A stretch of 40,507 bases of DNA. Source: a virus. Below are positions 6,897 to 20,656 of this stretch, in pieces. Each line of letters opens with the position of its first letter. The stretch's first letter is position 1. Location: positions 1-40,507 of IMG/VR virus record IMGVR_UViG_3300044972_001324, one strand, 5' to 3'. The notes under the pieces are model-generated. The model did no database searches, was not told the DNA's origin, and worked only from the letters and a program-made list of their open reading frames with translations. The translations under genes were made by a program, and so were the position numbers.

Positions 6897-6980
6897 GTAT
6901 CAGTACCGGGAATCGAACCCAGTTTTTCAGCTAACATCATGACAAATCGCTGCGTTTTAACCTGTATAAACTACCTGATA
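6897..6980 (-). tRNA. tRNA-like gene with a 15-base anticodon loop centred on CAU
   Basis: Reading the minus strand: acceptor TATCAG pairs with CTGATA (6 bp), U8-A9 follow, D arm GTTT/AAAC has GG in its loop, and T arm CTGGG-TTCGATT-CCCGG is followed by the acceptor strand. The variable loop is AAAAA. The anticodon stem is CAGC/GCTG with a G-A at its end. Instead of 7 bases the anticodon loop has 15 (plus coordinates 6933-6947): six bases, CAU, six bases. Its last nine bases CAUGAUGUU are the exact antisense of AACAUCAUG found at ten gene starts. The acceptor has one irregular position and no encoded CCA. It could be a decayed tRNA, a tRNA-shaped regulator, or an unusual initiator-like tRNA. 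Confidence 0.6.
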
Positions 6981-7002
6981 TATGTTTGGGAGTTACCCCA
7001 AA

Positions 7003-7368
7003 CTATTCTTTTTTCTTTTTTAACTTACCTTTTAACTTTTGGCTCCAGCTTAATTTCGCTTCGGCTTGTTCTTTTAGTTCCCTTTTAACTGAATCGTGTG
7101 CTGCATCCAATACGTGACCTTTTGCGAGGGTTTTTTCAATCTTTAATCTCTCAACCTTACTTAGTAGGTTTTTCGCTCCCTTAGTGCGTGTAACTTCCTT
7201 TTTGTATTGTTTTACCTTTTCATCGTATTGTTCTTGGGTAAGCTCAATATGTCCTGGTAGTCGTACATATTTATTGTAGTAGTAAAGTGGATCATTAGCG
7301 CATCTTTCTATTTCTTCTATATCTGTGACATTTGGGCCGGGAATATCCCTAAATTTATCTTGTTCCAT
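7003..7368 (-). CDS. hypothetical charged protein, 121 aa
   Basis: Acidic N-terminus with a YYYNKYVRLPG segment, then a long lysine/glutamate-rich region likely to be helical or coiled coil, ending in KKKKE. No recognised enzyme motif. Similar charged small proteins follow DNA metabolism genes in other phages, but no function can be given. The start overlaps the stop of the 58-residue gene upstream by 14 bases. Confidence 0.5.
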   Translation of the reverse strand: MEQDKFRDIPGPNVTDIEEIERCANDPLYYYNKYVRLPGHIELTQEQYDEKVKQYKKEVTRTKGAKNLLSKVERLKIEKTLAKGHVLDAAHDSVKRELKEQAEAKLSWSQKLKGKLKKKKE

Positions 7369-7756: not shown

Positions 7757-8041
7757 TTAATTAAGTTCGTTTATATTGCCTTGAATATCCTTTCTTAATC
7801 CAATTGGATAGTTATACCAGCTAACGTATTGACTCGCCATGTCGTGTAAGCATTGCAGGTCGTTTGAATATCTTATAAAGTATATTGATTCACTACCATC
7901 TTTGTGGCACCCTTTTACGATCATTGCGTACTTTTTCTTTGAGCTGTATTTGTTTGCATCCTTACCAGGAGATAACACTGTTTCTCTTTCAAGTTCTGGA
8001 TATGATTCTTTTATTATTGCGTAGTTGTATGGAGTTTTCAT
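7757..8041 (-). CDS. hypothetical protein, 94 aa
   Basis: Starts MKTPYNYAII, contains lysine-rich and aromatic segments and CHKDGSESIYFIRYS near the middle. Soluble, unknown. Its ATG overlaps the preceding stop by 4 bases (8038-8041), implying coupled translation with the gene upstream, the first member of the AACATCATG set. Confidence 0.5.
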   Translation of the reverse strand: MKTPYNYAIIKESYPELERETVLSPGKDANKYSSKKKYAMIVKGCHKDGSESIYFIRYSNDLQCLHDMASQYVSWYNYPIGLRKDIQGNINELN

Positions 8042-8256
8042 AGTATAATGTTTTTAACGTTTCCAGAAGGCATTGTAGTTATTCTCATTCGGTATGCGCC
8101 ATCTTTTTTACATACCTTATATTGATCTTTTAATTCTTTTAAAGTAGGTTTGCAGTCAAATGTAGTGCTTCTTTGAAGCAACCATGTATTGTCTTTAGTA
8201 AATAGAGTTACTGTAACGTCTAATTTACCTTGTGATGTTGTAGTGAAAAATGCCAT
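8038..8256 (-). CDS. hypothetical protein, 72 aa, AACATCATG start
   Basis: A beta-rich small protein (LDVTVTLFTKD, TWLLQRS) of unknown family. Its start context is AACATC-ATG followed by GCA, giving 12 consecutive pairs (one G-U) with the expanded loop of the tRNA-like RNA. It is the most downstream of ten genes with this start. Confidence 0.55.
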   Translation of the reverse strand: MAFFTTTSQGKLDVTVTLFTKDNTWLLQRSTTFDCKPTLKELKDQYKVCKKDGAYRMRITTMPSGNVKNIIL

Positions 8257-8271
8257 GATGTTTTGTTTTTT

Positions 8272-8445
8272 TTATTTATTACTATTTTGTTTTTCGTACA
8301 AAGAAATTAATTTCTTTAAGATGAAAAAATTGATTATAAGCGTGGGGAATACATAGATTCCGTATTCAAGTCCTGTAAATATTCCTTGTGTTATTGTTAA
8401 GATGATAAGCATCCCAAATAATAAGCTTGTTGTTGATATGTACAT
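8272..8445 (-). CDS. small two-helix membrane protein, 57 aa
   Basis: A 57-codon frame from ATG 8445 to TAA at 8272. Residues about 7-25 (SLLFGMLIILTITQGIFT) and 29-45 (GIYVFPTLIINFFILKK) are hydrophobic enough for two membrane helices, with a short charged tail. ACAATACAAT ends 9 bases upstream of its ATG. It could be a holin or envelope modifier, but no lysis cluster surrounds it and membrane location is the only safe inference. Confidence 0.6.
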   Translation of the reverse strand: MYISTTSLLFGMLIILTITQGIFTGLEYGIYVFPTLIINFFILKKLISLYEKQNSNK

Positions 8446-8465
8446 AAGTTTTCTATTGTATTGTA

Positions 8466-8921
8466 TTAAATATTTCCCTCGTCTGCAAATGAATAATAAC
8501 TTTCCTCTGTAATTATAAGGTGGTCCATTAGTGTAACATCAAATAATAACGCTGCTTGTTTAATTTTCTGTGTAATTTCCTTATCAGCGTTACTGGGCGT
8601 TGTATTTCCAGAAGGGTGGTTATGGCAAAGTATTATTGAACTTGCATTTAGATCAATAGCTGGTTTAATAACGTGCTTTACTTCGACTACTGTACCTGTT
8701 ATACCTCCTTCAGATATTTTCATTACTGCAAGTACTTGATTGAATCTATTTAGATACATTGTATAAAAAACTTCTTTGAGTTCCATATTTTTTTCGTATG
8801 CTTCAATACTTTTAAAAATGATTGAGCAACTTTTTGAATCGTGTATTTTCTTTCTTTCTGAAGCCTTAACTTTTGTTTTGTAAGTTAATTCGATTTCGGC
8901 TACTTTGTTTAAATTTTCCAT
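8466..8921 (-). CDS. radC: RadC-like JAB/MPN domain protein
   Basis: A 151-residue protein covering the RadC catalytic domain without the N-terminal helix-hairpin-helix. The JAMM zinc motif is intact: E50 in the first strand, then H100-N-H102-PSG and D113 in HNHPSGNTTPSNAD. JAMM proteins are zinc metallopeptidases; RadC's real substrate is not settled despite its DNA repair name. Such short RadC proteins are common on phages and mobile elements. The leader has ACAATACAAT at 8941-8950 and the start context AACATC-ATG. Confidence 0.85.
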   Translation of the reverse strand: MENLNKVAEIELTYKTKVKASERKKIHDSKSCSIIFKSIEAYEKNMELKEVFYTMYLNRFNQVLAVMKISEGGITGTVVEVKHVIKPAIDLNASSIILCHNHPSGNTTPSNADKEITQKIKQAALLFDVTLMDHLIITEESYYSFADEGNI

Positions 8922-8951
8922 GATGTTTTTTTATTATTTTATTGTATTGTT

Positions 8952-9176
8952 TTAAAATTTGTTTTGAGCTTTAAACATGTAGCCCCTTAAAAATTGATTC
9001 ATTTCCCGCGTTAACATATATTCGGTTTTAACTATGTGGTTTTTCATTAGAGCAACCTTTTCGCCTTGAATTTTCGGGGCAAATGATAGTTGAAAATCTT
9101 TAAGTTCTGGACAAAGTTCCTTTGCTGCGGTTAACATATTGTTTACTGCTTCGATTGGTAGGCGTTTGTGTGGCAT
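8952..9176 (-). CDS. hypothetical protein, 74 aa
   Basis: Starts MPHKRLPIEAVNNML; helical, neutral to basic, with a conserved-looking FLRGYMFKAQ ending. Its leader is CTACA-ATG, a shortened relative of the TACAATACAATG start. No function recognised. The gene lies between two AACATCATG genes. Confidence 0.5.
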   Translation of the reverse strand: MPHKRLPIEAVNNMLTAAKELCPELKDFQLSFAPKIQGEKVALMKNHIVKTEYMLTREMNQFLRGYMFKAQNKF

Positions 9177-9188
9177 TGTAGATAGTTT

Positions 9189-9752
9189 TTAAATTTCTTC
9201 TCCTTCTGTGTCTATTGTTGTTGCTGCACCAAAGATGAAGCAAATTTCATCAACTATACAATCTCCTACTTCTGGGCTTTTGTACTTCATTAAAACTTGT
9301 CTTAATCTTTCGTGGTTTTCACGGGCTTCTTGTACATCTAAAGTGTTTTTGTTTACAAAACCTACTTCGATTGCTATTGTGCATCCTTTTTCAAGTGCTT
9401 CGTATAAACTTTTAGTTGTTTCGATTAAACTTTCCGTTTCTTCTTTTTCGTAAATTGCATACAATGGGAATAAGCCACTGCTATAGATTTCTTCTGCATT
9501 ATTGGTAACATCTTTCCAGGTGAAGCCATCTTTAAATTGTATTGTTTTGTTATCATTATAACTATAGTATTCTATAATGTTTCTTAACCTATGATTCAAT
9601 TCATTTGCTTCTTCTGAAGCTATTTGTACCCAATCATTACGATCTTCCAATTCATCCCCTGAATGTTCGAAAATTGCCTGTACCTTTTCTTTTCTGCTTT
9701 CAGAATTAATAGCTTTGTTTAAGTCTGAAATAATTTCTTTGTTATTTGCCAT
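9189..9752 (-). CDS. hypothetical acidic protein, 187 aa; best predicted target of the tRNA-like loop
   Basis: ATG 9752 (MANNKE) is chosen. The upstream 44-residue extension would read through ACAATACAAT (9771-9780) and the AACATC leader. The protein is acidic and probably helical, with EEANELNHRLRNII and many Glu residues, and has no known domain. Around its start the mRNA reads UAACAUCAUGGCAAAU. This can pair over 16 continuous bases, with one G-U, to AUUUGUCAUGAUGUUA in the loop of the tRNA-like gene at 6.9 kb. That is the longest match among the ten genes. Confidence 0.6.
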   Translation of the reverse strand: MANNKEIISDLNKAINSESRKEKVQAIFEHSGDELEDRNDWVQIASEEANELNHRLRNIIEYYSYNDNKTIQFKDGFTWKDVTNNAEEIYSSGLFPLYAIYEKEETESLIETTKSLYEALEKGCTIAIEVGFVNKNTLDVQEARENHERLRQVLMKYKSPEVGDCIVDEICFIFGAATTIDTEGEEI

Positions 9753-9780
9753 GATGTTATGTTTTTTTTTATTGTATTGT

Positions 9781-10023
9781 TTATATTTCTTCAAAAAGTA
9801 CATTTGCCTGGACCTCTTGAATAAGGTAGTTTTCTTCTTCTCGATCCATTGTTGTGAAGTTCTTTGACAAATTATCTTTGTCATCTTCGTTTAACGGTTC
9901 TTTGTCCGTTAATTTAGTGTATTCCAATGCTCCATTAATAGCATTGTTAACGGTTGTGTAAATTCCTATGGGTTCGGTTGAACTTGTTTTGTCAACGGTG
10001 TTGAGTATGTATAAAAATTTCAT
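9781..10023 (-). CDS. hypothetical acidic protein, 80 aa
   Basis: Begins MKFLYILNTVDK, a beta strand, then an acidic helical tail. The start is TACAATACA-ATG, the repeat fused to the start codon as in the gene at 7747. Unknown family. It ends 28 bases before the next start, in which the ACAATACAAT element of that gene lies. Confidence 0.5.
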   Translation of the reverse strand: MKFLYILNTVDKTSSTEPIGIYTTVNNAINGALEYTKLTDKEPLNEDDKDNLSKNFTTMDREEENYLIQEVQANVLFEEI

Positions 10024-10032
10024 TGTATTGTA

Positions 10033-10092
10033 TTATTTAAGTGAATTGATAAAATTGATTAGGTCCTTTATTTGTTGGTTTTCTTTTCGCAT
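10033..10092 (-). CDS. 19-residue mini-ORF with AACATCATG start
   Basis: A tiny frame, MRKENQQIKDLINFINSLK, begins at ATG 10092 preceded by AAACATC. It is the shortest member of the ten-gene start family and sits 10 bases before the fused start of the gene at 10023. The shared start context argues that it is translated. It may be a regulatory leader peptide for its neighbour or an independent micro-peptide. Not verifiable from sequence alone. Confidence 0.45.
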   Translation of the reverse strand: MRKENQQIKDLINFINSLK

Positions 10093-10103
10093 GATGTTTA
10101 ATT

Positions 10104-10349
10104 TTAATCTTCTAAAGTCGTTCCGTTAAAATCTAAATAGTCGACTTTTGGATACTTTTTTTCAATGTATTTTAATAGTTGATTTTTACTTCTAAATTTT
10201 TTCATTATTTCTCTATCGCTCCAGGCGTTTTGAAAACAATATTCTTTTATTATTGCAATATAATTTCCTTTAAATATTTTGCCTTTTGTTGGTAATAATA
10301 ATACATTATCCGTTAATGTATTTTCTTGTAATATAAATTCTAATGCCAT
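10104..10349 (-). CDS. hypothetical protein, 81 aa, AACATCATG start
   Basis: Beta-rich N-terminus (MALEFILQE) followed by a helical segment with WSDREIMKKFRSKNQLLKY and an acidic end. It resembles small phage proteins of unknown role. The start reads AAAAACATC-ATG-GCA. A GC-rich hairpin (10371-10394) lies 22 bases upstream. Confidence 0.55.
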   Translation of the reverse strand: MALEFILQENTLTDNVLLLPTKGKIFKGNYIAIIKEYCFQNAWSDREIMKKFRSKNQLLKYIEKKYPKVDYLDFNGTTLED

Positions 10350-10370
10350 GATGTTTTTGTTTTTTTATGT

Positions 10371-10394
10371 CCCCGCTCCGATAATGAAGCGGGG
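10371..10394. promoter_or_regulatory. CCCCGCT/AGCGGGG intergenic hairpin
   Basis: A 7-bp perfect stem with a 10-base loop in an otherwise AT-rich gap, just upstream of the 10349 start. No U-run follows on the minus strand (it reads ACATAAAAAAAC), so it is not a typical terminator. It could be an RNA processing or stability element. Two similar hairpins lie at 12271 and 12954. Confidence 0.5.
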
Positions 10395-10406
10395 GTAAAT
10401 TATTAT

Positions 10407-10565
10407 TTAATTAATGCACACTATTGAACTAATTTGTGCCGGTTTTCTTTTACCTTTTTCAATATCCAATAACTCGAATGCGTTTATTAGTTGTATTGAA
10501 GCAAATAGACGCATTTGCGAAGCGTTTAAGCGTTTAAATTTGAGTTGTTGGTATTCTGTATTCAT
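10407..10565 (-). CDS. hypothetical basic protein, 52 aa
   Basis: A 52-codon frame from ATG 10565 to TAA at 10407. Its start overlaps the stop of the 379-residue gene as TAATG, a common coupling arrangement. The product is basic and helical (FKRLNASQMRLFASIQLINAF). A plus-strand open frame over the same bases has no such context and is taken as the shadow. Confidence 0.6.
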   Translation of the reverse strand: MNTEYQQLKFKRLNASQMRLFASIQLINAFELLDIEKGKRKPAQISSIVCIN

Positions 10566-11704
10566 TAGATTAGTTTTAATTCGTTTAACCTTGTTTCTGT
10601 GCTTTCTACATTAAAAACGTGGCACCCTATTTTAACAAAAGTTTTGCTTTGTTCTATTAATACCTTGTTTATTGTATAGGGACCTATTTTTTGCCCTATT
10701 ACATTCACTTTGTTTTTGATAGCGTTAATAAATTTAATAGCATCTTTAATTAATACTTTTGCGCCAAAATTAGTTACAATTTTATCGTTTTCAACTTCTT
10801 TAATGAAATTAAGCGCGTTTGTGTTACCATTCAAAAAGTTTCTAATTTGAATATCAATATTAAATTCTTGATCTATAAAATTATCTATTTCGTATTCTAA
10901 CTGATGCAATAAATTTTCTTTAAAACCTTTTAATTCATCTTCAATATGTTTTAACATCCAGTTAACTGCTTCAATTTTTTCATCAAAACATTTTATTGCG
11001 TCTTCAATCCTTTTAATAAGTTCCTTTTTTGTTTCGTTTCGATATATATTATCGTTTAATATTTCATTAAATTCCTTGTTGTTATCTTCGTTGTATGCGC
11101 TTTGTAAATAATAGTACATGTTCGCTTCATCTTCGCAAAAATTTTCTACTTCGCTACATTCTGCAAATGATAACCATCCTCCAGACCTTCCAAACTGCCA
11201 AACATTTTTTTCATCAAATTGTGAAAGGATACAATATTCTTGAAAGTCTTTTTCATTTTTTGAAATAAAGTATTTTTGAAATTCTTTTAATGTTTTGTCT
11301 TCGTGTCCTTCAATGTAGTTGTAATAGTATTTTAATTCGATACTGCAAAAGTTTTCTTTTATTGTGTTAAAAGCTCTCCAAAGTTTGTTAAAATTAGTTG
11401 TTGCGCATAAGTCTACAAAATCTTTAAAATAACTTACTTGATTTTCGCATGTATGATAGTAAATTGAATTTAGCCTATCTTCATTAAATTCTATTAATAA
11501 ACTTTCTTTTTCTTCTTCGGTTAAGTTTAATGTTTTTATATGTTCTTCAACGTCTGAAGCGCTTAACCATTCGTAAACTTTAATATTGCCTACTATGTAC
11601 CCCTCTCGAGTATCAAAGTCGTTACGCGCTTCAAAACTATTTATTTCATTTGCTCTCTCTAATAAGCTGAAAATTTGTTCGTTTATTTTACTAATTTTTT
11701 TCAT
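10565..11704 (-). CDS. hypothetical protein, 379 aa, largest gene of the small-gene run
   Basis: A Glu/Asn/Lys-rich, largely helical protein. Two recognisable patches are VWQFGRSGGWLSF near residues 168-180, with a Gly-rich turn, and a C-terminal 80-residue module that ends KIGCHVFNVEST. This pair of patches is recalled from other phage proteins of unknown function (DUF-type). Start AACATC-ATG with ACAATACAAT 22 bases upstream (11726-11735), the only gene with both elements besides RadC and the 9752 gene. Function unknown. Confidence 0.6.
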   Translation of the reverse strand: MKKISKINEQIFSLLERANEINSFEARNDFDTREGYIVGNIKVYEWLSASDVEEHIKTLNLTEEEKESLLIEFNEDRLNSIYYHTCENQVSYFKDFVDLCATTNFNKLWRAFNTIKENFCSIELKYYYNYIEGHEDKTLKEFQKYFISKNEKDFQEYCILSQFDEKNVWQFGRSGGWLSFAECSEVENFCEDEANMYYYLQSAYNEDNNKEFNEILNDNIYRNETKKELIKRIEDAIKCFDEKIEAVNWMLKHIEDELKGFKENLLHQLEYEIDNFIDQEFNIDIQIRNFLNGNTNALNFIKEVENDKIVTNFGAKVLIKDAIKFINAIKNKVNVIGQKIGPYTINKVLIEQSKTFVKIGCHVFNVESTETRLNELKLI

Positions 11705-11737
11705 GATGTTTTTTTTTAATTTGTTATTGTATTGTTT

Positions 11738-12232
11738 TTATAAATATTCTGGAAAGTCCATTCCATGTTTATGTGCAAAACTATCTTTGTTTTGTGTTTC
11801 TATTGTAATTGATATTTTATAATTCAACATTGCATCTAATTGCTGAAGATCAAAAATTTTATAATGTTCTTCTTGCGTTGGTTCTGCGTTAAATTCTGCG
11901 AAGCCTTTTAAGTAGAATTTTATCGCTTCTTGAATTAGTTTTGTTTGTCCTGTTGGTATTGTAATAGTTTCTTTAGGGTATAAATATTTATCATAATATT
12001 TATTCATTGACTTGTTTATTAACTTCTTTTCGCTTAAATTTAAGTGTGCATTTTTAATGCAAATTTTATTAAAGATAGTAGTTAATTTTTCGCACGGTTC
12101 TAAAAAACTTTCAAAATCTGGATGATCAATACCATGATGAAAATTTAATCCTATTATCTTTCCATTTTCGTATGTTAAAAATACGTATCTATCGTACAAC
12201 TCTTGTACTAATATTTTTTTAATTGTTTTCAT
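11738..12232 (-). CDS. hypothetical protein, 164 aa
   Basis: A lysine-rich soluble protein starting MKTIKKILVQELYDRYVFL, with a YDKYLYPKETITIPTG segment in the centre. No domain recognised. Start context GAACATC-ATG. A GC-rich hairpin (12271-12294) lies upstream. Confidence 0.55.
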   Translation of the reverse strand: MKTIKKILVQELYDRYVFLTYENGKIIGLNFHHGIDHPDFESFLEPCEKLTTIFNKICIKNAHLNLSEKKLINKSMNKYYDKYLYPKETITIPTGQTKLIQEAIKFYLKGFAEFNAEPTQEEHYKIFDLQQLDAMLNYKISITIETQNKDSFAHKHGMDFPEYL

Positions 12233-12270
12233 GATGTTCTTTTTTTTAATTTGTTATTTTTTTTAAATTA

Positions 12271-12294
12271 CCCCGCGCCAATGTGAACGCGGGG
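12271..12294. promoter_or_regulatory. CCCCGCG/CGCGGGG intergenic hairpin
   Basis: A 7-bp perfect stem with a 10-base loop between the genes ending at 12304 and starting at 12232. It is similar in stem and loop length to the hairpin at 10371. No U-run follows in the direction of transcription, so a processing or stability role is more likely than termination. Confidence 0.5.
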
Positions 12295-12303
12295 TTAAAA
12301 TTG

Positions 12304-12645
12304 TTATTTACTTGTTTCTTTACATTTATTAATAAACTCAATTAGTAGTTTATCAACTCTTTTTATTTGCACTTTGTATCCTAAATTATAGTTATTTACT
12401 ATTTTTTGTGCCTTCGCTTCATACTTCTTTATAAGCTCCCAATTTACATTTTTACCTATTGGACTATAGCCAGTACTTAAACAAGTATTATCTATTTCGT
12501 AATAGTCACAATTCCAACCGTTGATCCCGCTTGAATATGCAAAGGGTTTTTTATAGTATGTTAGATATTGAATATCACAATATCCAATTGAAAAAATATT
12601 TACAAAGTTTTGTTTTATTTGGCTTTTTGTTACTTTAGCTTTCAT
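12304..12645 (-). CDS. hypothetical basic protein, 113 aa
   Basis: A lysine- and tyrosine-rich protein (SIGYCDIQYLTYYKK), soluble, not recognised. Start context CAACATC-ATG. It follows its upstream neighbour by about 50 bases containing one GCGGGG motif. Confidence 0.55.
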   Translation of the reverse strand: MKAKVTKSQIKQNFVNIFSIGYCDIQYLTYYKKPFAYSSGINGWNCDYYEIDNTCLSTGYSPIGKNVNWELIKKYEAKAQKIVNNYNLGYKVQIKRVDKLLIEFINKCKETSK

Positions 12646-12696
12646 GATGTTGTATTTTATTAATTATTAATTTTTGTAATGTGTTCGCGGGGTGAA

Positions 12697-12930
12697 TTAT
12701 TTATTTACTTTTTTATAATCTGAAATACCAGTATGCAAACGTAGGAATTCGTTTAAATACTTTGCAGTAGTTTTGCTTTGTGGTTGCCCTTCAACAATCT
12801 TAATTATTGGCTCGTTGCCTTGTTCGTAGTTTTCAATAGTACATACTATAGTAGAATAAGATTGAAATACTATTTTGCCATCTGCAAAAAAGTACATTTG
12901 ATTTGGTGCTAATTGTTTAACTGTGTTCAT
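12697..12930 (-). CDS. hypothetical protein, 77 aa
   Basis: A small protein starting MNTVKQLAPNQMYFF, with beta strands and a helical C-terminus (KYLNEFLRLHTG). Start context UAACAUC-AUG-A, giving 11 consecutive pairs with the tRNA-like loop. Unknown function. Confidence 0.5.
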   Translation of the reverse strand: MNTVKQLAPNQMYFFADGKIVFQSYSTIVCTIENYEQGNEPIIKIVEGQPQSKTTAKYLNEFLRLHTGISDYKKVNK

Positions 12931-12953
12931 GATGTTATATGTTTTTAATTTTA

Positions 12954-12976
12954 CCCGCCTTAAATATAGGCGCGGG
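12954..12976. promoter_or_regulatory. CCCGC/GCGGG intergenic hairpin
   Basis: A 5-bp GC stem with a 13-base loop in the gap between genes 12997 and 12930. It is the third and weakest of the GC-rich hairpins between members of the AACATCATG run. Confidence 0.4.
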
Positions 12977-12996
12977 ACAAACCTAATTATTACTAT

Positions 12997-13194
12997 TTAA
13001 TTAATTACTACATTCATATTGATTTTATAATTATGAAATTCAAAATACCAGTTTTCATCATTGTAAAGATTTTTAGCTATCTTTATTTTTTCTTCAGTAT
13101 TTTCTATATTACCCAATACAATACTAAACACTTTATTTTCTAACGCTTTTACGGAGTGAATAGAAAAGTACTTCATTTCGTTATTTGATTTCAT
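12997..13194 (-). CDS. hypothetical protein, 65 aa, first gene of the small-gene run
   Basis: Starts MKSNNEMKYFSIHSV. An IEN..EKIKIAKNLYNDENWYF segment follows, a pattern typical of tiny phage proteins, function unknown. It is the promoter-proximal member of the 13.2-8.2 kb run; the long inverted repeat at 13237-13291 lies 43 bases upstream. Start context UAACAUC-AUG-A. A weak AAACTTTG element at 13223-13230 could be its -7 box, but no matching -33 box is seen. Confidence 0.5.
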   Translation of the reverse strand: MKSNNEMKYFSIHSVKALENKVFSIVLGNIENTEEKIKIAKNLYNDENWYFEFHNYKINMNVVIN

Positions 13195-13236
13195 GATGTT
13201 ATATATTTATATTATTAATTTACAAAGTTTAAAAAT

Positions 13237-13291
13237 AAAGATAGGTTTTTAATTAGGTCCGTTTTCGGTTACTTAATTATAACCTATCTTT
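13237..13291. terminator. long inverted repeat, probable bidirectional terminator
   Basis: Left arm 13237-13255 (AAAGATAGGTT then TTTAATTA) pairs with right arm 13274-13291: 11 bp, a small internal loop, then 6 bp, around an 18-base loop. T-rich runs follow on both strands (TTTTAAAAATT on plus, ATTTTTAAAC on minus), so it can end transcripts from either side. It separates the coding run from the non-coding region. Confidence 0.6.
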
Positions 13292-14570
13292 TAAAAATTA
13301 GTTCGTGCATCTATTTACCCGCTATTGATATACTAATGCTTCAACCTTTCAACACCACGAAGATAGAAACAATATTTTACATGACAATACAAAAAAGTAA
13401 TAAAAAATAATAAATTATTATAAATAATTATTAAAACCTTGAATATCAAATAAATAAAAATGTATATTAAATGAAATTATCCGTTTTTAATCGGATAAAT
13501 ACGGCTAAAATAGCCCAAAATCGCTATGTAAGGCAAAGTACTTTGAATTTCAAAGTGTCAATATACTGTCAATTTGAGATCAATATCAAGACTATTTTAA
13601 TCGAATTTAAGGAACTAAAATTTAATAGATATGCGATATATCAAAAAACAAGTAAAAAACGCTCAAAAGCCCCGTTTTAAGGTAGGCGCGGGAAAAACAT
13701 AATACTATTAATTAAACTACTATTATAGACAAATACATAAGAGATAAACAAACAACCAACACAACAAACAAACAACATACAATACCAGGTATCAAGTAAC
13801 CCAATATTCAAAGAAACAATTAAACAAGAAAACCAACACAATAAAAACCGATTGAGAGAGAGGCACAAAGGCGAAGCCACGAAGCACAAGACACGAAGCC
13901 CACAAAACTAATAAAGGTTATTATTGTTTATATGCAGATAAAAACAATAATTTTCTATAAAAATTCAATACTCTACCAATCCAATAGACTAATGTTCTTT
14001 TTTGTCTGATAATTTACATTATGTTAAATAGACTTTTCAAGCCCTTTATTTATGGGCAATGCGTAGCTCCTCCCCTACTCTATTGATATATAAAAACTAT
14101 GTAATAAGTTACACGTGTTAGCGTATATGTAGCGGATCAACGTATGCACGTAGGCGCGTATCTACACGCATTGAAGCGTATATGTATATACATTGTTGCG
14201 TTGGTGCGTTGGCTCCTTTGTTACCTTTGTTTCCGATTCAGTGATGGGGAGGGGGGTGTTTGTTAGACATAATACCCCACCCATAGAATTATTTTCGATT
14301 TTAGATTCCTTAATACTTTTGTGTTCAGCGACTTAGGATATTGGTTATAGGATTATGTGAGGATACATTTTCTTTTAGAAAGTGGGTAGGGGGATTAAAA
14401 GTACCTTAATAAGAAAATAGGATTCCAAGAGTGTTTTTTATCCCATCGGTGTATATGTTATACTCAATCCCAGTAAAACCGTTGGTGAGGCGAGGTGTGG
14501 TTTAATGTTAGGATTCCAATAATAAACCTTGTTTATGAGGTGTTTCGGAAGTGAAAAGGGGTAGGGGGAT
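13292..14570. other. 1.3-kb non-coding region, candidate replication origin
   Basis: No convincing gene is present. Parts: an AT-only stretch (13370-13440); a segment almost free of G and T on the plus strand (about 13730-13920, CAAACAACCAACACAACAAA-like), giving strong strand asymmetry; an iteron-like cluster rich in GCGTA/ACGTA (14110-14215); and G-rich repeats such as GTAGGGGGAT and AGGATTCCAA further right. AT-rich DNA next to iterons and asymmetric composition is typical of replication origins. The lone DnaA-domain protein encoded at 1.6 kb is a possible ligand. A single-strand or packaging function is also possible. Confidence 0.5.
14120..14186. repeat. iteron-like direct repeats AGCGTATATGTA
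   Basis: The 12-base sequence AGCGTATATGTA is repeated exactly at 14120-14131 and 14175-14186, 55 bp apart (about five helical turns). Between and after them are related elements: ACGTATGCACGTA, GCGCGTATCTACACGC and GTTGCGTTGGTGCGTTGG. The array lies in the non-coding region and is the best origin or partition-site candidate in the window. Confidence 0.55.
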
Positions 14571-14602
14571 AAAAAAGAACCCATATTTTTTAGGTATGGG
14601 TT
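14571..14602 (-). terminator. terminator of the methyltransferase operon
   Basis: On the minus strand AACCCATA pairs with TATGGGTT (8 bp, 9-base loop) and is followed by CTTTTTTATC. It lies 37 bases after the stop of the 66-residue gene and ends the 16650-14639 transcript before the non-coding region. Confidence 0.7.
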
Positions 14603-14638
14603 ATTCTGTGTATTCTTTTGTTAGGGATTTGTTGGTTA

Positions 14639-14839
14639 TCATTCTTTCGTAGTCTTTCCAGAAGTATTTTGTTGCGTGAACAGTTCTTCAGTACTTTCCA
14701 CTGGTTTATATCTGTATAGTAGGTTTTCGTAACGGTGGTTAAGTGTTTCAAGTTCTTCGAATAGTGAGTGTATTTCTTTTTTTAATCTTTTTGAGGTTGT
14801 TGGGTCCTTTAGGATTTTGTTTATTTTTTTAAGTTTCAT
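14639..14839 (-). CDS. hypothetical coiled-coil protein, 66 aa
   Basis: ATG 14839 overlaps the stop of the cytosine methyltransferase gene as ATGA, so translation is probably coupled. The longer frame from 14893 would lie inside the methyltransferase. The product starts MKLKKINKILKD and is lysine/glutamate-rich with heptad-like hydrophobics (LFEELETLNHRYENLLYRY), a likely short coiled coil. It might be an accessory partner of the enzyme. Unknown. Confidence 0.6.
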   Translation of the reverse strand: MKLKKINKILKDPTTSKRLKKEIHSLFEELETLNHRYENLLYRYKPVESTEELFTQQNTSGKTTKE

Positions 14840-16650
14840 TTTTTGTTTAGATTTGAGTATGAGAGAATATGTTTTATTACTTCTATGGCCCATCCATTAC
14901 CGAGCATCCTGTAGATTTGAGTATCAGATGTATTTCCCCACGAGTACCATTCGGGAACGGTTTGTAATCGAGAACATTCGAGGGGTGTAAGTCTGCGGAT
15001 TCGGAAGTCTTTTGTTAGTTGCATAAACTTTGTTTCGGAAGCCATAAGGGTGTTGGATTTGTCTATCATTTTTCTTCCTCTACTCGTAGAGGAATCGGGA
15101 TGTTCGAAGTCGAAACATTCACCTGGTTGTATTTCAACGTAGCCTTTTTTTGTTGCTTCGGGGATTTGGATAATTAATTTTTGCCCATTCCTTTGAGATT
15201 TACTACCTATATTCGTTGTTAACGAACCGCTTTTTTGGTCTGTTCTAAATCTACTATTGTAATCATCGTAAATATTAATTTCAGTATTTTCTTTAGTAGC
15301 GTCATTAATTTTAGGGATTGTTATGCCTACTCCTCTTAGTTTTCCCCCGGCATCTGCACGTAAAGTTGGGTGCTTTGGGTTGTCTATGTGGGTTGGGTTG
15401 TCTTGGCGGTAGTTTGATATTTTGTCTGATCCATCAATCATAACGAGTTGACCGCAACTTTCATCGTTTCTTGCTCTTGCTGCTAATGTTCCGCTTTTAC
15501 CATTTTTTCTTATTCTTATACCTTCGTCAGTTCTGAAGTCGCATCCTAAAACTATCTCTGTTTCTTTTACTGTTACTAATAAATCAGATTTATGCGCACA
15601 AAGAGCTGGGGAAATACCTTCGCTATCGTAGATTCTGTTTTGTTGGAAGGGTTGTTTACCGTTAGATTCTTTTGAAGGATTTATCTGCATTACAAGGTTA
15701 TCTTTTTGCACTGTTGTAAGGCAGTTTGTTTTACCATCGTTACGAGGTTCAAGCATTTGTTCTGTTGGGCTACCTACTGTTCTATCTTTTGGATTGTCGG
15801 GGTTTCTACCTCGTTGGGCTACGATGAAGTCTTTAACATAAGTTTCCCCGCCATTGTGTACACCTTTATGATAATTAGCTGTTAATGTAGATGTTTTCTC
15901 CGAGCCATCATTATAAACTACGTTTTCAGTTCTTTCTTCTTTAGCTCTTAATAAGTAAGCTAAGGCTTTATCACTCAAAAAATACTTTTCATCCACTACT
16001 GGTTCAAGGATGTCTTTTAGTAGTATTCCTCTATCTTTTGGTTGTGGTATTTCACATACGGGATCACCTAAAAAGCCTTGTGGGAAGTTGTGTATGTTGG
16101 TCCAATAAAGTCTTTTACGGTTTTGTGCTGAAACTAATGCAGCGTTTATCATTATTGGGGCTATTCCTATTGCTCGTGAAAGTACAAGTTCCCATTCTTT
16201 TGTCATTACTACGTTTTCAAGTAGAAATTCTACATCGGGATTGTATTTTTGTATGTCACGAAGTATTCTCATATATTCCCAAAATAGGTATGATTGCCCT
16301 TCAAATTCAAAGTTTTTTGATTTAAGCTCAAGGTAGTGGTCAAGTTCTAATATTTTTATACTTTCTTTTGTTGACATACCTTTCATCTTCCCCGCGAATG
16401 AAAAGGACTGGCAGGGAGAACCTCCACCGAGTATCGAAATATAAGGAAGTTTAGTTACGTCTATATCTCTAACATCACCTAAGTGAATGGTATTTGGGAA
16501 AGCGTGTTTCGTTTGAGCGATAGCGTGTTTATCCACTTCTGAAGCGTAGTAGTTGTCGATTTTGATGTTAAGTTCTTTTAGTGCTATTTGAAAGCAAGAC
16601 ATTCCATCAAAAAGGGAAAGTGCGTTTGTTTCGTTGTTGTTGTTTTTCAT
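14836..16650 (-). CDS. dcm: C5-cytosine DNA methyltransferase with seven repeated recognition-like modules
   Basis: 604 residues. Motif I LSLFDG (11-16), catalytic PC79-80 in GGGSPCQSFSFAG, ENV at 145-147, QNRKR at 176-180 and the C-terminal motifs ECSRLQTVPEWY (559-569) and MLGNGWAIEVI (582-592) are all present, so the enzyme looks active. The region between motifs VIII and IX is unusually long (about 190-545). It carries seven repeats of a xSxTLxA-type element: TSTLTA 253, TNCLTT 308, SPALCA 347, SGTLAA 386, HPTLRA 427, SGSLTT 474 and SNTLMA 532. Multi-specific phage enzymes also use repeated target-recognition segments. It would transfer methyl from SAM to cytosine C5, protecting phage DNA. 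Confidence 0.9.
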   Translation of the reverse strand: MKNNNNETNALSLFDGMSCFQIALKELNIKIDNYYASEVDKHAIAQTKHAFPNTIHLGDVRDIDVTKLPYISILGGGSPCQSFSFAGKMKGMSTKESIKILELDHYLELKSKNFEFEGQSYLFWEYMRILRDIQKYNPDVEFLLENVVMTKEWELVLSRAIGIAPIMINAALVSAQNRKRLYWTNIHNFPQGFLGDPVCEIPQPKDRGILLKDILEPVVDEKYFLSDKALAYLLRAKEERTENVVYNDGSEKTSTLTANYHKGVHNGGETYVKDFIVAQRGRNPDNPKDRTVGSPTEQMLEPRNDGKTNCLTTVQKDNLVMQINPSKESNGKQPFQQNRIYDSEGISPALCAHKSDLLVTVKETEIVLGCDFRTDEGIRIRKNGKSGTLAARARNDESCGQLVMIDGSDKISNYRQDNPTHIDNPKHPTLRADAGGKLRGVGITIPKINDATKENTEINIYDDYNSRFRTDQKSGSLTTNIGSKSQRNGQKLIIQIPEATKKGYVEIQPGECFDFEHPDSSTSRGRKMIDKSNTLMASETKFMQLTKDFRIRRLTPLECSRLQTVPEWYSWGNTSDTQIYRMLGNGWAIEVIKHILSYSNLNKK

Positions 16651-16720
16651 AATTCTAATTTAACAAGACCAGATTTTAAATAGTATCTGTTCTAATTTTA
16701 CGATGTAGGTATCCATATTT

Positions 16721-17269
16721 TCAAAATAACGATTGTTGCGTGTTAATTGTTTTCAAATAGTTTTCTAACGCTAACTCACGAGCTTTTACTGCGTCTAATT
16801 CATTTACAAAATAACCCAAGTGGATTCTTTTTTTATTTATACCAATATAAGCGTTCCATTTTTTAACGCCTTTTCTTTTACAAACGCCTCTATGTTTTGA
16901 CGTGCATTCCTTGCTTTTTTGAACTCTACAAACGTTTTCTATATGTGTTATTACCTGTAAATTTTCAAGCCTATTGTCTGTTTTTATTCCATTAATATGG
17001 TCAACTACTTTATCGTGACCACAAGGGACGTGGTTTAAAAAAGACATCGCAACAAGTTGGTGAACTTTAAAGTGTTTTGATTTGTTATTTTTTAATAATA
17101 CAAAACACAGATAATCTCCCTTTCCTTTGTGTCCGTTAGATATTCTTTCTTTACGCTTCACTAATCTGTCGGTATATGTATTCCATTCTTTAATTAAACT
17201 TTTTACTCTACCCATATTTGACACTTGATATAAACCTTCATAATTAGGTATGTCTTTCCAAATTTCCAT
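16721..17269 (-). CDS. free-standing homing endonuclease, NUMOD4-HNH-AP2 type
   Basis: ATG 17269 (MEIWKDIPNYEGLYQVSN) is chosen over 17329 because the NUMOD4 motif starts there and the longer frame crosses a terminator. Domains in order: NUMOD4 (1-25); HNH core around VVDHINGIKTDNRLENLQV (88-106) with H91; and an AP2-like DNA-binding segment (HRGVCKRKG..KWNAYIGINKKRIHLGYF, about 126-172). Such enzymes cut intron-less or marker alleles and spread by repair. It sits next to the methyltransferase gene, with its own leader structure upstream, and looks like an insertion in the operon. Confidence 0.85.
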   Translation of the reverse strand: MEIWKDIPNYEGLYQVSNMGRVKSLIKEWNTYTDRLVKRKERISNGHKGKGDYLCFVLLKNNKSKHFKVHQLVAMSFLNHVPCGHDKVVDHINGIKTDNRLENLQVITHIENVCRVQKSKECTSKHRGVCKRKGVKKWNAYIGINKKRIHLGYFVNELDAVKARELALENYLKTINTQQSLF

Positions 17270-17285
17270 ATTATTTTTGTTAAAT

Positions 17286-17312
17286 AAAAAACCCCGGTAA
17301 ATCCTTTGGGGT
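17286..17312 (-). terminator. terminator just upstream of the HNH gene
   Basis: On the minus strand ACCCC pairs with GGGGT (inner GG/CC possible) and is followed directly by TTTTTTATTT. It would end transcripts from the lysozyme gene, 16 bases before the endonuclease ATG. It may also act as the expression platform of the structured leader at 17310-17370. Confidence 0.65.
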
Positions 17313-17370
17313 CTCACTTCCAAATTCATTATCGAGGTTCAATAATTTTTTATGTTCTTAGCGTGAGACC
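17310..17370 (-). promoter_or_regulatory. structured leader: GGTCTCAC/GTGAGACC stem before the terminator
   Basis: Minus-strand RNA would form an 8-bp stem closing a 45-base loop. The loop holds a TTAT/ATAA hairpin, and GTTC/GAAC pairing is possible near the base. The 3' strand of the stem runs directly into the terminator hairpin at 17286. This aptamer-then-terminator order resembles a riboswitch or attenuator controlling the HNH gene. No known class was recognised. Confidence 0.45.
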
Positions 17371-17407
17371 GAACAGTAATACAAAGATAGTAATTATTTT
17401 AAATAAA

Positions 17408-17791
17408 TCAGCATCCTTCAATATTTTTATAAACTTCTTTTATTCTTTGTATGTAGTTATCTTCTGGACAATATGCTTTGCAACCACTTTCTGTTTTGTA
17501 CATACATTTTAAAAATTCAAAATAATCCCCGGTTCTGTAACGAATGTTTATGTTAAATTTATAAAATAGAACACACTGCTTCCAACTTTCAAATGTGATA
17601 TGTGGGCCAAGTCCTAAAATGTTATTACGGTGTGTTGCGTTGTAGGATTTAAGGTGTTGGCTTTCGTATATTACTTGGGCCATTACAATATCAGGGTGTT
17701 TCATCCCTACTTGATAGAGGTATGAATGTACTTCCTTTAATGTTTGCCCTTGAAAGGATAATGGGAGTAGGAGGAATAGGAGTTTTTTCAT
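17408..17791 (-). CDS. exported lysozyme-like protein (GH73/glucosaminidase-like), probable endolysin
   Basis: 127 residues. MKKLLFLLLPLSFQGQ is a signal peptide, so the enzyme could reach the periplasm through Sec without a holin. Residues 31-62 (KHPDIVMAQVIYES, then a gap and NNILGLG) match the peptidoglycan hydrolase pattern PSVxxAQxxxES...NNxxGxK of FlgJ/GH73 enzymes, with E43 the probable catalytic acid. Cysteines near residues 107-113 suggest periplasmic disulfides. It would cut the glycan strands for host lysis. Position in a minus-strand operon far from the tail genes is not unusual for this phage layout. Confidence 0.65.
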   Translation of the reverse strand: MKKLLFLLLPLSFQGQTLKEVHSYLYQVGMKHPDIVMAQVIYESQHLKSYNATHRNNILGLGPHITFESWKQCVLFYKFNINIRYRTGDYFEFLKCMYKTESGCKAYCPEDNYIQRIKEVYKNIEGC

Positions 17792-17818
17792 TAATGCTTA
17801 TTTGATTTCAAATTTAAT

Positions 17819-17885
17819 CTTTCCCGCCCCTTAGTGTACAGAAAATGTTTTAAAGGCGTATTCCGTAGGATAGAGGGTGGGAAAG
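17819..17885 (-). promoter_or_regulatory. long-range hairpin in the leader of the lysozyme gene
   Basis: CTTTCCCGCCC (17819-17829) and GGGTGGGAAAG (17875-17885) can pair over 11 bp with one G-U, closing a 45-base loop. It occupies most of the gap between the 17897 stop and the 17791 start. A role in setting lysis timing is possible but not shown. Confidence 0.45.
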
Positions 17886-17896
17886 TTATTTGATGG

Positions 17897-18301
17897 TTAT
17901 TTGATAAGTTGAAAATAAAAAGTAAATCTTTCTCTTACTCCTACTTCTTCTACTTCAAAGGAACCGTAGTTTGTGCTTTCATCAAAGCCTAAGATTTTCT
18001 TAAATAGGAATTGATTGCTTCCTGAAAAGTGGTAGCGTTCTGATAGTATTTCCCCGGCTTGGGTTACAGTCTTGGCTAAAACCTTTTCAGGTGGTTTTTT
18101 CAGTAAGATGTATCCTTTTTCTTTAAACCATCCTACAAGTGTGTGAGCATCTTCATACTCCATTGGTTCATCGTTTCCAATACCTGAATCCATTATGGAT
18201 ATTAGTTGGTCTTTGTTTACACCAAGTAGTTTACATAGGTCGTTTTGATCGTTACGGAAAACGAATCCATCTTCTCCGTATATGAATTTTATTTGTTCCA
18301 T
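17897..18301 (-). CDS. hypothetical protein, 134 aa
   Basis: ATG 18301 (MEQIKFIYGEDGFVF) is preferred. The longer frame to 18451 overlaps the next gene and is arginine/tyrosine-rich out-of-frame sequence. The protein has a RNDQNDLCKLLGVNKDQL segment that may be a helix-turn-helix, and a beta-rich C-terminus. It starts 3 bases after the stop of the upstream gene. Unknown. Confidence 0.55.
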   Translation of the reverse strand: MEQIKFIYGEDGFVFRNDQNDLCKLLGVNKDQLISIMDSGIGNDEPMEYEDAHTLVGWFKEKGYILLKKPPEKVLAKTVTQAGEILSERYHFSGSNQFLFKKILGFDESTNYGSFEVEEVGVRERFTFYFQLIK

Positions 18302-18303
18302 AG

Positions 18304-18690
18304 TTATCCTTTTAATTCTTGAATATCTGTTGAGTTGAAGATGGTATCGAGTGATACGGGTGCGCCTATTGATTGTAGGAATAGTACAGCGTGATACATT
18401 GTAGGTATCTTTGCTATGATAGGTGTTTTTTCTGGGGTTATTATAAACCATTTGTGTACCCCGCCTGTTGTTGTGTCGGGGGATATTTGATAACCATCCC
18501 TTTCGTATATTTCTACACGTATATCGTTTGGATCTTTGTGTAATTTGAATTTTAGGTATTCTGGAAAGAAAGGTTCATTCATTAAGTGAATACCCATTTC
18601 TTTGTTTTGAGTAATAAAGTCGTTAAGACGTTTTGTTACTTCTTGGATTTCCCTATGTCGTTTTGGGAATAATAGCTTGTGTAGGTTCAT
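18304..18690 (-). CDS. hypothetical protein, 128 aa
   Basis: A basic N-terminus (MNLHKLLFPKRHREIQ) leads to a soluble alpha/beta protein with GGVHKWFIITPEKTPII in the centre. It is adjacent to and probably co-translated with the 18301 gene. No known family recognised. Confidence 0.55.
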   Translation of the reverse strand: MNLHKLLFPKRHREIQEVTKRLNDFITQNKEMGIHLMNEPFFPEYLKFKLHKDPNDIRVEIYERDGYQISPDTTTGGVHKWFIITPEKTPIIAKIPTMYHAVLFLQSIGAPVSLDTIFNSTDIQELKG

Positions 18691-18751
18691 ATTAATTTAT
18701 TTATAGTGTACAATATTTGATTGAAGTTCTTTTGTTAAAATAGAGTTTATT

Positions 18752-19060
18752 TTATACTTCTTCTAATGTTAGGTTAACGAGTTCTGAAACATCAATGCTA
18801 TCTAATTCCCCACAGGCTTTTATCATAATTTTAAGCATTTTTAAATCTTTTTCTAAAAATACAAATCTGGTAATTAGGTAGCAGTTGTAGGGAGCGCATC
18901 CTTTAAGGTTTACTTCTTTTAGTAGTACTCCAAATTGATTGTTTTGTAGGAGTTGATTGTAAACGTGGGTAACGTGGTACTTTTCTCCTTTTTTAATCCA
19001 TTGTGATGTTGGTATTTCCTCCGGCTTGTCTGAATCGTTTATGCAATAGCAAGGTATCAT
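18752..19060 (-). CDS. conserved small phage protein of unknown function, 102 aa
   Basis: The N-terminus CYCINDSDKPEEIPTSQWIKKGE followed by KYHVTHV, and the later KGCAPYNCYLITRF, form a pattern seen in many Bacteroidota phage proteins. That family appears to have an SH3-like beta fold with conserved Cys near the start. Role unknown. Start ATG 19060 lies 24 bases after the U-run of the terminator-like hairpin at 19085-19109. Confidence 0.6.
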   Translation of the reverse strand: MIPCYCINDSDKPEEIPTSQWIKKGEKYHVTHVYNQLLQNNQFGVLLKEVNLKGCAPYNCYLITRFVFLEKDLKMLKIMIKACGELDSIDVSELVNLTLEEV

Positions 19061-19084
19061 ATTATCTGTTCTTAATTTACTTTT

Positions 19085-19109
19085 AAAAAATATGCGGGTC
19101 TTTCCCCGC
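19085..19109 (-). terminator. GCGGGG hairpin plus U-run closing the RNA-gene region
   Basis: On the minus strand GCGGG(G) pairs with CCCGC around AAAGA and is followed by ATATTTTTT. It would end transcripts carrying the tRNA-like and structured segments, before the 19060 gene, or act as an attenuator for that gene. Confidence 0.6.
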
Positions 19110-19237
19110 CTGTCACTCGTTAGATTATGCTCTCTGGACTTTATGAGTTAAGCCCCGATAACCGTAAGCATTTCGGTCAGTCTGCAACTGGGCGTAAACC
19201 TGTGACTGATTTTCCTTATCATTTACGCCTTGCTATG
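19110..19237 (-). ncRNA. structured RNA segment downstream of the second tRNA, weakly group I intron-like
   Basis: No reading frame is evident, but the minus-strand RNA folds densely. There is an 8-bp stem GGCGTAAA/TTTACGCC with an inner TGAT/ATCA hairpin, CAGT/ACTG, ACCG/CGGT, and a long-range GTCAC/GTGAC pairing across the segment. GCAGACTGACCG followed 30-odd bases later by CATAAAGTCCAGAGAG resembles the R and S (P7) elements of compact group I introns such as the Azoarcus tRNA intron, at similar spacing (about 47 bases). Splice sites and P3-P6 were not convincingly found, so the identity remains open. Confidence 0.35.
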
Positions 19238-19335
19238 TGGTTGGGGCAGGAATCGAACCTACTCACGTGACTTAAGTTATGATGAATTGCACGATTTTCA
19301 TCTTTTTAGCATCTACCCAATTATGCTACCCAACC
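19238..19335 (-). tRNA. tRNA-like gene with an enlarged anticodon/variable region, 98 bases
   Basis: The minus strand shows a perfect 7-bp acceptor (GGTTGGG/CCCAACC), U8-A9, D arm GCAT-AATTGGGTAG-ATGC and T arm GTAGG-TTCGATT-CCTGC. Between the D and T arms are 46 bases, where a class I tRNA has about 23 and a class II about 35. The only strong hairpin there is GATGAA-AATCGTGCAA-TTCATC (6 bp, 10-base loop), offset by six bases from the D stem and followed by palindromes CTTAAG and CACGTG. An anticodon cannot be assigned. CCA is not encoded. Confidence 0.6.
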
Positions 19336-19340
19336 GTTTT

Positions 19341-19380
19341 AAAAAATTCCCCGCTTGAATAGCGGTACAAGCAGGGAATT
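19341..19380 (-). terminator. strong terminator ending the candidate ncRNA
   Basis: On the minus strand AATTCCCTGCTTG pairs with CAAGCGGGGAATT (12 of 13 pairs, 10-base loop) and continues into TTTTTT. It lies only 5 bases before the second tRNA-like gene, so that tRNA is either produced by read-through or by processing. Confidence 0.75.
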
Positions 19381-19507
19381 ACAACTAACAAACACTACAA
19401 GTTTCTTCCAACAACTAATTAAAAAGAAACCTGTACGAAAATAATCTAATTTGTATTGGGGAATACGATTTGTTGAAAGGTTCTTCCCAATAGGTTTCGA
19501 TTAATTT
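19341..19507 (-). ncRNA. pseudoknotted candidate small RNA with its own promoter and terminator
   Basis: Minus-strand RNA of about 165 bases with no ORF. P1 GAAACCT/AGGTTTC (19492-19498 with 19426-19432) is followed without a linker by P2 ATTGGGAA/TTCCCCAAT (one bulged C). The 20-base P2 loop contains CTTTCAACAA, which pairs over 10 bp with TTGTTGGAAG at 19405-19414, making a pseudoknot. A mutually exclusive hairpin GTTTCTT/AAGAAAC uses the P1 3' strand and the pseudoknot strand, so the RNA could switch. A strong terminator closes it. No known Rfam class was recognised. A TAACTTTG box lies upstream at 19515. Confidence 0.6.
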
Positions 19508-19514
19508 CTGATTT

Positions 19515-19522
19515 CAAAGTTA
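19515..19522 (-). promoter_or_regulatory. -7 box TAACTTTG upstream of the candidate ncRNA
   Basis: Matches TAnnTTTG on the minus strand, about 8-15 bases before the first structured bases of the ncRNA. No TTG was found at the -33 position, so the promoter is incomplete by consensus. Confidence 0.45.
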
Positions 19523-19646
19523 GTTTCTTTATCTTTACTATTATCCTTTTCTACACTAATGGAAAGTATTAAGTGAGGAAAGGTTTTGTTTGAGGATAAG
19601 CATTATTCGTTTATCTTTTCTCTTTATTTTAATTCTATTTTTATTT

Positions 19647-20480
19647 TCACTTTTTCTTTACACTACTTATACCTCTACTACAAAAACCCGAATCAAGACC
19701 CAAGGGATTAGATAACTGTAATAGGAAAATCGGAGTATGCTCTTCGTAAATGTTTCCATCACTATAAGTCATAAAACGGAAACTATGCTCCTTAGCGTAT
19801 GCAATAGCTCTTAATGCAAATTCCTTCGTTACCCCTTCTTTTACAAGTTTAAAGTTACGTTGGTATCTTGCAATACCTACATCGTTTAAATATTTGCGTA
19901 TTTTTACAGCAGTAGGCTTTGAACAATCTAATACTTTCCCCGCCTTATGTAACGATAGTCGTATTGGTCTGATGTCGTGTATGTCGTTGTCCTTTTGGAA
20001 TTTTTTTAATGCCCTAAAAGCTTTCATTCCGACTTTCGCCTTCGGATTGCTTTCAAGGTAGGTATAAGTTCTACGGAAATTCTCTTTGACTTCGATCATC
20101 TTCTTCTGACGATACAAATTCGATATAATGGGAACGGATTTTAAAAATTGTTTAATACCTTTTAAGGTAGTTTCTTTGGTAAATAACCTAAAACCACTGT
20201 TAAAGTGGTATTTTCGGATGATTTTCTTATTGGAAATAATGGTTACAACACCATTTTTGTACGTTAATAGTCCTTTTTCCCGCAAAATGCTCAAATGTTT
20301 ATACAAAACTTTGGTGTTTAAGCCCGTTTCTTCAACTTTAAATCGCTTGTGAGGGAAGTTTACAGATAAATAAACAAAATATGCAAGTGATGGCATCCAA
20401 CCGTGCTTAAAAGCATCGTAATACATCTTTCCGTGTATTCTCGTGGTTTGATTCGTATTTTGCTGTTTAAATTTTGTCAT
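19647..20480 (-). CDS. winged-helix/helix-turn-helix DNA-binding regulator, 277 aa
   Basis: ATG 20480 (MTKFKQQN) is used because the longer frame to 20510 runs into the promoter. Two probable DNA-binding units are visible: residues about 46-82 (FKVEETGLNTKVLYKHLSIL, then REKGLLTY and a wing) and about 180-215 (LDCSKPTAVKIRKYLNDVGI). The double helix-turn-helix layout resembles phage or plasmid replication/regulatory proteins. It is transcribed alone from a strong promoter in the RNA-rich region, close to the early/late divergence, so it may control that switch. The C-terminus SSVKKK is basic. Confidence 0.6.
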   Translation of the reverse strand: MTKFKQQNTNQTTRIHGKMYYDAFKHGWMPSLAYFVYLSVNFPHKRFKVEETGLNTKVLYKHLSILREKGLLTYKNGVVTIISNKKIIRKYHFNSGFRLFTKETTLKGIKQFLKSVPIISNLYRQKKMIEVKENFRRTYTYLESNPKAKVGMKAFRALKKFQKDNDIHDIRPIRLSLHKAGKVLDCSKPTAVKIRKYLNDVGIARYQRNFKLVKEGVTKEFALRAIAYAKEHSFRFMTYSDGNIYEEHTPIFLLQLSNPLGLDSGFCSRGISSVKKK

Positions 20481-20507
20481 TTTAGTGATATAATTAATTC
20501 TGCACTG

Positions 20508-20540
20508 CAAACATAAACATTATATCAATACAAAAGCAAA
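20508..20540 (-). promoter_or_regulatory. promoter of the winged-helix regulator
   Basis: Minus strand: TTTG (20537-20540), 21 bases, TATGTTTG (20508-20515), a full consensus match. The transcript would start near 20501, about 20 bases before ATG 20480. Confidence 0.7.
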
Positions 20541-20545
20541 TTTTT

Positions 20546-20656
20546 GGCAAAAAAAAAACACTGGGAACTAAAAACCAGTGTTTTTGATAAAAACGCTACA
20601 TCACTAAAACGTTTTTAAGCCTGTAAAGAAATTTGCAGAATCTTAGGCTTGAAATT
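20546..20656 (-). ncRNA. candidate small RNA of three hairpins
   Basis: No ORF. The minus-strand RNA has three successive stems: AAGCCT/AGGCTT (20617-20650), AAAAACG/CGTTTTT (20589-20616) and AAAAACACTGG/CCAGTGTTTTT (20554-20585, followed by a long U-run). A promoter-like TTTG-N16-GATATTTG (20663-20690) lies just upstream. Size about 110 bases. The last hairpin also works as a terminator on the plus strand, so it may merely insulate the regulator's promoter. Confidence 0.45.

Follow-up and report, generated by a model that had tools for sequence, protein, structure and literature searches.

A nine-base motif at ten gene starts of an unclassified phage and its complement in the loop of a tRNA-like RNA

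Ten gene starts on one strand of an unclassified phage genome share the same nine bases, AACATC-ATG, and a tRNA-like RNA encoded downstream of them, hereafter T1, has a loop that contains their exact complement. The ten-start motif is a correct observation and is not due to chance. Judging from the sequence of this one genome, we consider with modest confidence that pairing between the T1 loop and the start sites is functional, the main rival being a chance match in T1. The more specific reading, in which T1 pairs with AACAUC-AUG of the ten cistrons and acts in trans as an antisense switch of their translation, is tentative, and we place it just short of even.

The start motif and its setting

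The minus strand of the window (the whole 40,507-nt stretch of DNA that was analysed) carries ten exact copies of AACATCATG between 8254 and 13200. The ATG of each copy opens an ORF (10/10), with the caveat for a count of ten genes that the ORF at 10092 has only 19 codons and that the 187-codon start at 9752 is internal to a longer mechanical ORF. The sites, each given with its low coordinate first, are as follows:

13192-13200, minus strand: AACATC-ATG, start of the 65-codon ORF at 12997-13194
12928-12936, minus strand: AACATC-ATG, start of the 77-codon ORF at 12697-12930
12643-12651, minus strand: AACATC-ATG, start of the 113-codon ORF at 12304-12645
12230-12238, minus strand: AACATC-ATG, start of the 164-codon ORF at 11738-12232
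11702-11710, minus strand: AACATC-ATG, start of the 379-codon ORF at 10565-11704
10347-10355, minus strand: AACATC-ATG, start of the 81-codon ORF at 10104-10349
10090-10098, minus strand: AACATC-ATG, start of the 19-codon ORF at 10033-10092
9750-9758, minus strand: AACATC-ATG, start of the 187-codon ORF at 9189-9752
8919-8927, minus strand: AACATC-ATG, start of the RadC-like JAB gene at 8466-8921 (151 aa)
8254-8262, minus strand: AACATC-ATG, start of the 72-codon ORF at 8038-8256

The original prediction, which had reported identical contexts at ten starts on one strand and at no other start, is confirmed by these counts, as AACATC precedes no other curated start in the window. Nor does the motif recur at random non-start positions: the window holds no sense copy of AACATC-ATG beyond the ten, and the lone eleventh copy of the 9-mer, at 6933-6941 on the plus strand, is antisense to the T1 gene. 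The expectation of less than one copy per window by chance also holds, dinucleotide-preserving shuffles giving a mean of 0.42 copies over both strands, with a maximum of 2. Across the ten aligned starts, columns -6 to +3 are invariant and the flanking columns vary (A, T, C or G at -7; A, G or C at +4), in agreement with the divergence outside the motif and the differing second codons noted before. The sites are predicted to be mostly open, with a mean unpaired fraction of 0.70-0.89.

The ten proteins, of 19 to 379 residues, are unrelated to one another (no credible hits in an all-against-all BLASTP comparison), which rules out recent duplication of the ten genes, as had been argued from the leaders. 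The 8466-8921 product is identified as a RadC-like JAB protein by Pfam (E 1.1e-38) and also by PHROGs. One of the ten proteins matched PHROG families of unknown function, another matched a Pfam domain of unknown function below the threshold, and Pfam and PHROGs yielded no match for the remainder, the 19-aa protein being too short to search. The description of the set as small unknown genes is thus mostly apt, the exceptions being the RadC-like JAB protein and the 379-aa product.

The motif starts follow the previous stop codon by 11 to 71 nt, whereas the non-motif starts in the block are mostly close-packed or overlapping (-14 to +20 nt from the previous stop), the methyltransferase gene behind T1 being the exception; the cistrons marked by the motif thus tend to be those in need of their own initiation. 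Of the two kinds of regulon that the motif had been suggested to mark, the translational one is partly supported, by the fixed ATG register, by the end of conservation exactly at -6 and by the position of the marked cistrons behind such gaps, and the transcriptional one is not, given that no TAHHTTTG host-type -7 element occurs within 60 nt upstream of any of the ten starts. The same result speaks against a host-type promoter before each leader. A DNA element of a phage-specific transcription system, be it a promoter, an operator or a transcript start, would account for a motif that is strand-specific, regularly placed and followed in each case by a gene, and the GC-rich hairpins that precede some of the leaders could separate transcripts. 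Nevertheless, a promoter does not need an exact ATG register, here kept in 10/10 copies with the ATG itself inside the motif, and neither a host-type -7 element nor, among the window proteins searched, a recognisable RNA polymerase gene was found; we regard a DNA element as very unlikely.

The leaders are A-rich: all ten motif starts have A at -3, -6 and -13, and nine of them have it at -12. C stands at -1 in 10/10 motif starts versus 1/42 of the other starts. In Flavobacterium johnsoniae, whose phylum lacks Shine-Dalgarno sequences, initiation is favoured by adenine at -3, -6 and -12/-13 (PMC6847099), and the motif, with A-3, A-6, A-12 and A-13, fits strong initiation of the Bacteroidetes type. 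Composition, the A-rich leaders and the TAHHTTTG-like sites that precede some other genes (1597, 20971, 21340) suggest that the host is a member of the Bacteroidota. These features can be read as a phage-specific start signal, recognised by the ribosome or an RNA-binding protein of phage or host, in which strong, A-rich, Shine-Dalgarno-free starts surround AACAUC as a fixed core for protein binding or ribosome contact, the match in T1 being accidental. Such a translation signal would explain the fixed register with the ATG, and the adenines coincide with the positive determinants known from F. johnsoniae (PMC6847099). However, the host preference is statistical whereas the phage motif consists of nine bases identical in ten genes, and the invariant A-5, C-4, U-2 and C-1 have no explanation in that preference. 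Nor is the motif a general habit of Bacteroidota phages, nothing similar being present in five named phages, in each of which the most frequent 6-mer at starts is A/T-rich and reaches no more than 3-6 copies. A start signal with a fortuitous match in T1, for which p is about 1e-4 before allowing for the search, is a credible alternative that we nonetheless consider rather unlikely.

A second repeated element, CAATACAAT, lies between 5976 and 11734, with eleven minus-strand copies and a single plus-strand copy. Its copies are mostly located just upstream of gene starts, and one is directly behind T1.

A tRNA-like RNA with a complementary loop

Two tRNA-like genes, T1 and T2, are present in the window. 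T1 is co-directional with the ten genes, the last motif start being 1.3 kb upstream of it:

6897-6979, minus strand: T1, tRNA-like RNA whose 4-bp anticodon stem carries a 17-nt loop (ARAGORN; Rfam RF00005)
6933-6941, minus strand: CATGATGTT, the part of the T1 loop made up of CAU and the next six nucleotides, the exact complement of AACAUCAUG

T1 matches Rfam RF00005 with 24.6 bits, under the gathering score of 29 (E 0.003 in a 201-base search), and has no other credible Rfam match. Its T-arm and D-arm are strong, and its acceptor stem is mismatched. ARAGORN reports T1 as tRNA-Asp(gtc), and the 7-nt GUC loop that this assignment requires rests on a poor anticodon stem with an A-A mismatch and G-U pairs. 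The Rfam tRNA model instead places a loop of 17 nt, not 7, between CAGC and GCUG, in agreement with a hand-fitted cloverleaf, so that T1 departs from the 7-nt anticodon loop on a 5-bp stem expected of a tRNA. In this loop, GAUUUGU-CAU-GAUGUUA, the CAU occupies the exact centre (7+3+7). The minimum-energy fold of T1 is not the cloverleaf: without constraint it reaches -18.4 kcal/mol, 1.5 better than the -16.9 kcal/mol of the cloverleaf, and in the free ensemble the loop is predicted to be only partly open.

A short hairpin, GTTTGGG-GTAACT-CCCAAAC (6982-7003, minus strand), lies between the preceding gene and T1. A 121-aa protein encoded at 7003-7368 on the minus strand has a weak match, over residues 16-43, to a terminase large subunit family, separate from the real terminase at 22042-24450.

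The CAU and the adjoining GAUGUU in the T1 loop are the exact reverse complement of the AUG and the six shared leader bases, and the invariance of the ten sites begins and ends exactly at the nine bases that can pair. In the window, the T1 loop holds the sole copy of CATGATGTT other than those on the strand opposite the motif starts. Plus-strand copies of the 9-mer are expected at 0.24 per window; given such a copy, the probability that it lands in the T1 loop is about 2e-4. Other ways of posing the question give similar values, namely about 6e-5 for a random 17-nt loop of the same composition to hold CATGATGTT, 2.5e-4 for its appearance in composition-preserving shuffles of the T1 loop and about 3.4e-4 for a match of the next six bases once a CAT anticodon is granted. 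All of these precede correction for a match that was noticed after the fact, and a generous factor of 30 brings them to about one per cent. With T2 as a control for complementarity to repeated start contexts, neither T1 nor T2 contains the complement of any other repeated start-context 9-mer, except for those that overlap the AACATCATG match. In predicted duplexes with the T1 loop, the ten motif starts fall within the best eleven of 53 starts (-12.8 to -19.9 kcal/mol), a ranking already implied by the complementarity rather than independent evidence; the only non-motif start among the best eleven is that at 31535 (-13.9 kcal/mol). The C at -1, so rare at other starts, would form a pair with the G immediately 3' of CAU in the T1 loop.

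A positive role for the same contacts can also be conceived, with T1 as an initiator-like tRNA or adaptor whose extended anticodon selects ten phage starts over nine bases, CAU reading AUG and GAUGUU pairing with the leader as a trans-acting substitute for Shine-Dalgarno pairing. The central CAU, preceded by U and followed by a purine, and a geometry equivalent to codon-anticodon pairing extended upstream would suit such an adaptor, and an alternative drawing of the loop gives a 7-nt GU-CAU-GA on a loose stem extension. A 17-nt loop with a nine-pair helix would, however, hardly fit the P site. The T1 anticodon stem, CAGC/GCUG followed by a G-A mismatch, lacks the three consecutive G-C pairs typical of bacterial initiator tRNAs, the acceptor stem is imperfect, and an antisense RNA lying over a start codon is normally a repressor. 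An adaptor function of T1 thus appears improbable.

The second tRNA-like RNA, T2 (19238-19335, minus strand), scores 34.1 bits against the Rfam tRNA model and has an enlarged region at the position of the anticodon arm; with ARAGORN it passes solely as a tRNA-Phe(gaa) interrupted by an 18-nt intron. Behind it, a structured stretch extends to about 19085 and ends in a GC-rich hairpin. One T2 segment, ATCATAACTT, is complementary over ten bases to AAGTT-ATGAT at the 5906 gene start (minus strand), probably by chance.

A candidate antisense switch and its known counterparts

In the reading that we favour, an antisense RNA built on a tRNA scaffold, AACAUC-AUG would be an RNA target common to ten cistrons of what we take to be one early-type operon. 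The 17-nt loop of T1 would display CAUGAUGUU and could form nine Watson-Crick pairs at each start site, covering the start codon and the six bases before it. T1 itself would be excised from the operon's own transcript by the tRNA-processing enzymes of the host, kept stable by its tRNA shape and accumulated along with operon expression. Within the cell, the duplex over the start codon would presumably hide the start from the 30S subunit and thus repress translation rather than activate it, and the ten targets, with their nine bases in common, would be down-regulated jointly. Because T1 is co-directional with the operon and located downstream, its amount would follow operon transcription, as would suit a feedback loop or an early shut-off.

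The closest counterpart is the C4 RNA of phages P1 and P7, which is about 77 nt long, is cut by RNase P from a longer transcript and pairs through its loops with the target mRNA, partly hiding the ribosome-binding site (PMC5320573, PMC11143913, PMC8546580). Both would be tRNA-sized phage RNAs released from the transcript of their own operon by RNase P, with loops that pair with the start region of a phage mRNA, cutting and pairing being putative in the case of T1. The complementarity to phage translation starts that characterizes C4-type RNAs extends in T1 over nine bases at ten starts. By contrast, C4 has three stem-loops, with two pairing loops and one target region, whereas T1 resembles a tRNA cloverleaf in which a single loop would serve ten targets. 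No C4 match came up when the T1 region and the left half of the window were searched against Rfam, and neither in sequence nor in fold does T1 qualify as a C4 RNA. Phage tRNAs with altered anticodon loops are known as well, and the changes have been proposed to evade host defences that target tRNAs (PMC10264068). T1 resembles them as a tRNA-like phage gene with a changed anticodon loop and differs in having an enlarged, 17-nt loop that is complementary to start sites of the phage itself. The phage motif likewise shares with the Kozak-like context of Bacteroidota (PMC6847099) the A at -3 and -6, the A-rich -12/-13 region and the lack of a Shine-Dalgarno sequence.

The original prediction was confined to the start motif; a complementary tRNA-like RNA as its possible trans-acting partner is an addition of the present analysis. 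Should the pairing prove real, a single phage RNA shaped like a tRNA would control a block of ten genes through a nine-base tag that includes the start codon, which would provide phages of hosts without Shine-Dalgarno pairing with a simple multi-gene switch and give an otherwise puzzling phage tRNA a concrete role. It would also suggest a search rule, whereby oversized anticodon loops of phage tRNAs are compared with the repeated start contexts of the same phage.

Relatives in sequence collections

Neither the T1 loop, sought in GTDB genomes, nor T1-like arms, sought in IMG/VR, were found, and no T1 relative was recognised among 19 tRNA-like matches with CATGATGTT before the T-arm. The methyltransferase relatives included none with an adjoining T1, the leader combined with CAATACAAT led to no relatives, and the portal, the capsid-like protein and the 379-aa protein had no match in a phage collection. 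The leader pattern AAAAAAACATCATGAAA occurs in 65 stretches of IMG/VR; among the 39 whole records counted, more than six copies are present only in a nearly identical contig, which has seven.

That contig, IMGVR_UViG_3300043470_001848, is one of only two recovered with the portal, the capsid-like protein, the 379-aa protein and other proteins as queries. It covers only 9834-26877, a range outside which T1 lies, and its seven motif sites, at 99.98% identity, are no test of conservation. The other contig, 88% identical, covers only 22606-26805, again with T1 outside. Relative to the window, IMGVR_UViG_3300043470_001848 is missing about 109 bases of the terminase gene (23792-23900), a gap that is not a multiple of three and is possibly an assembly difference.
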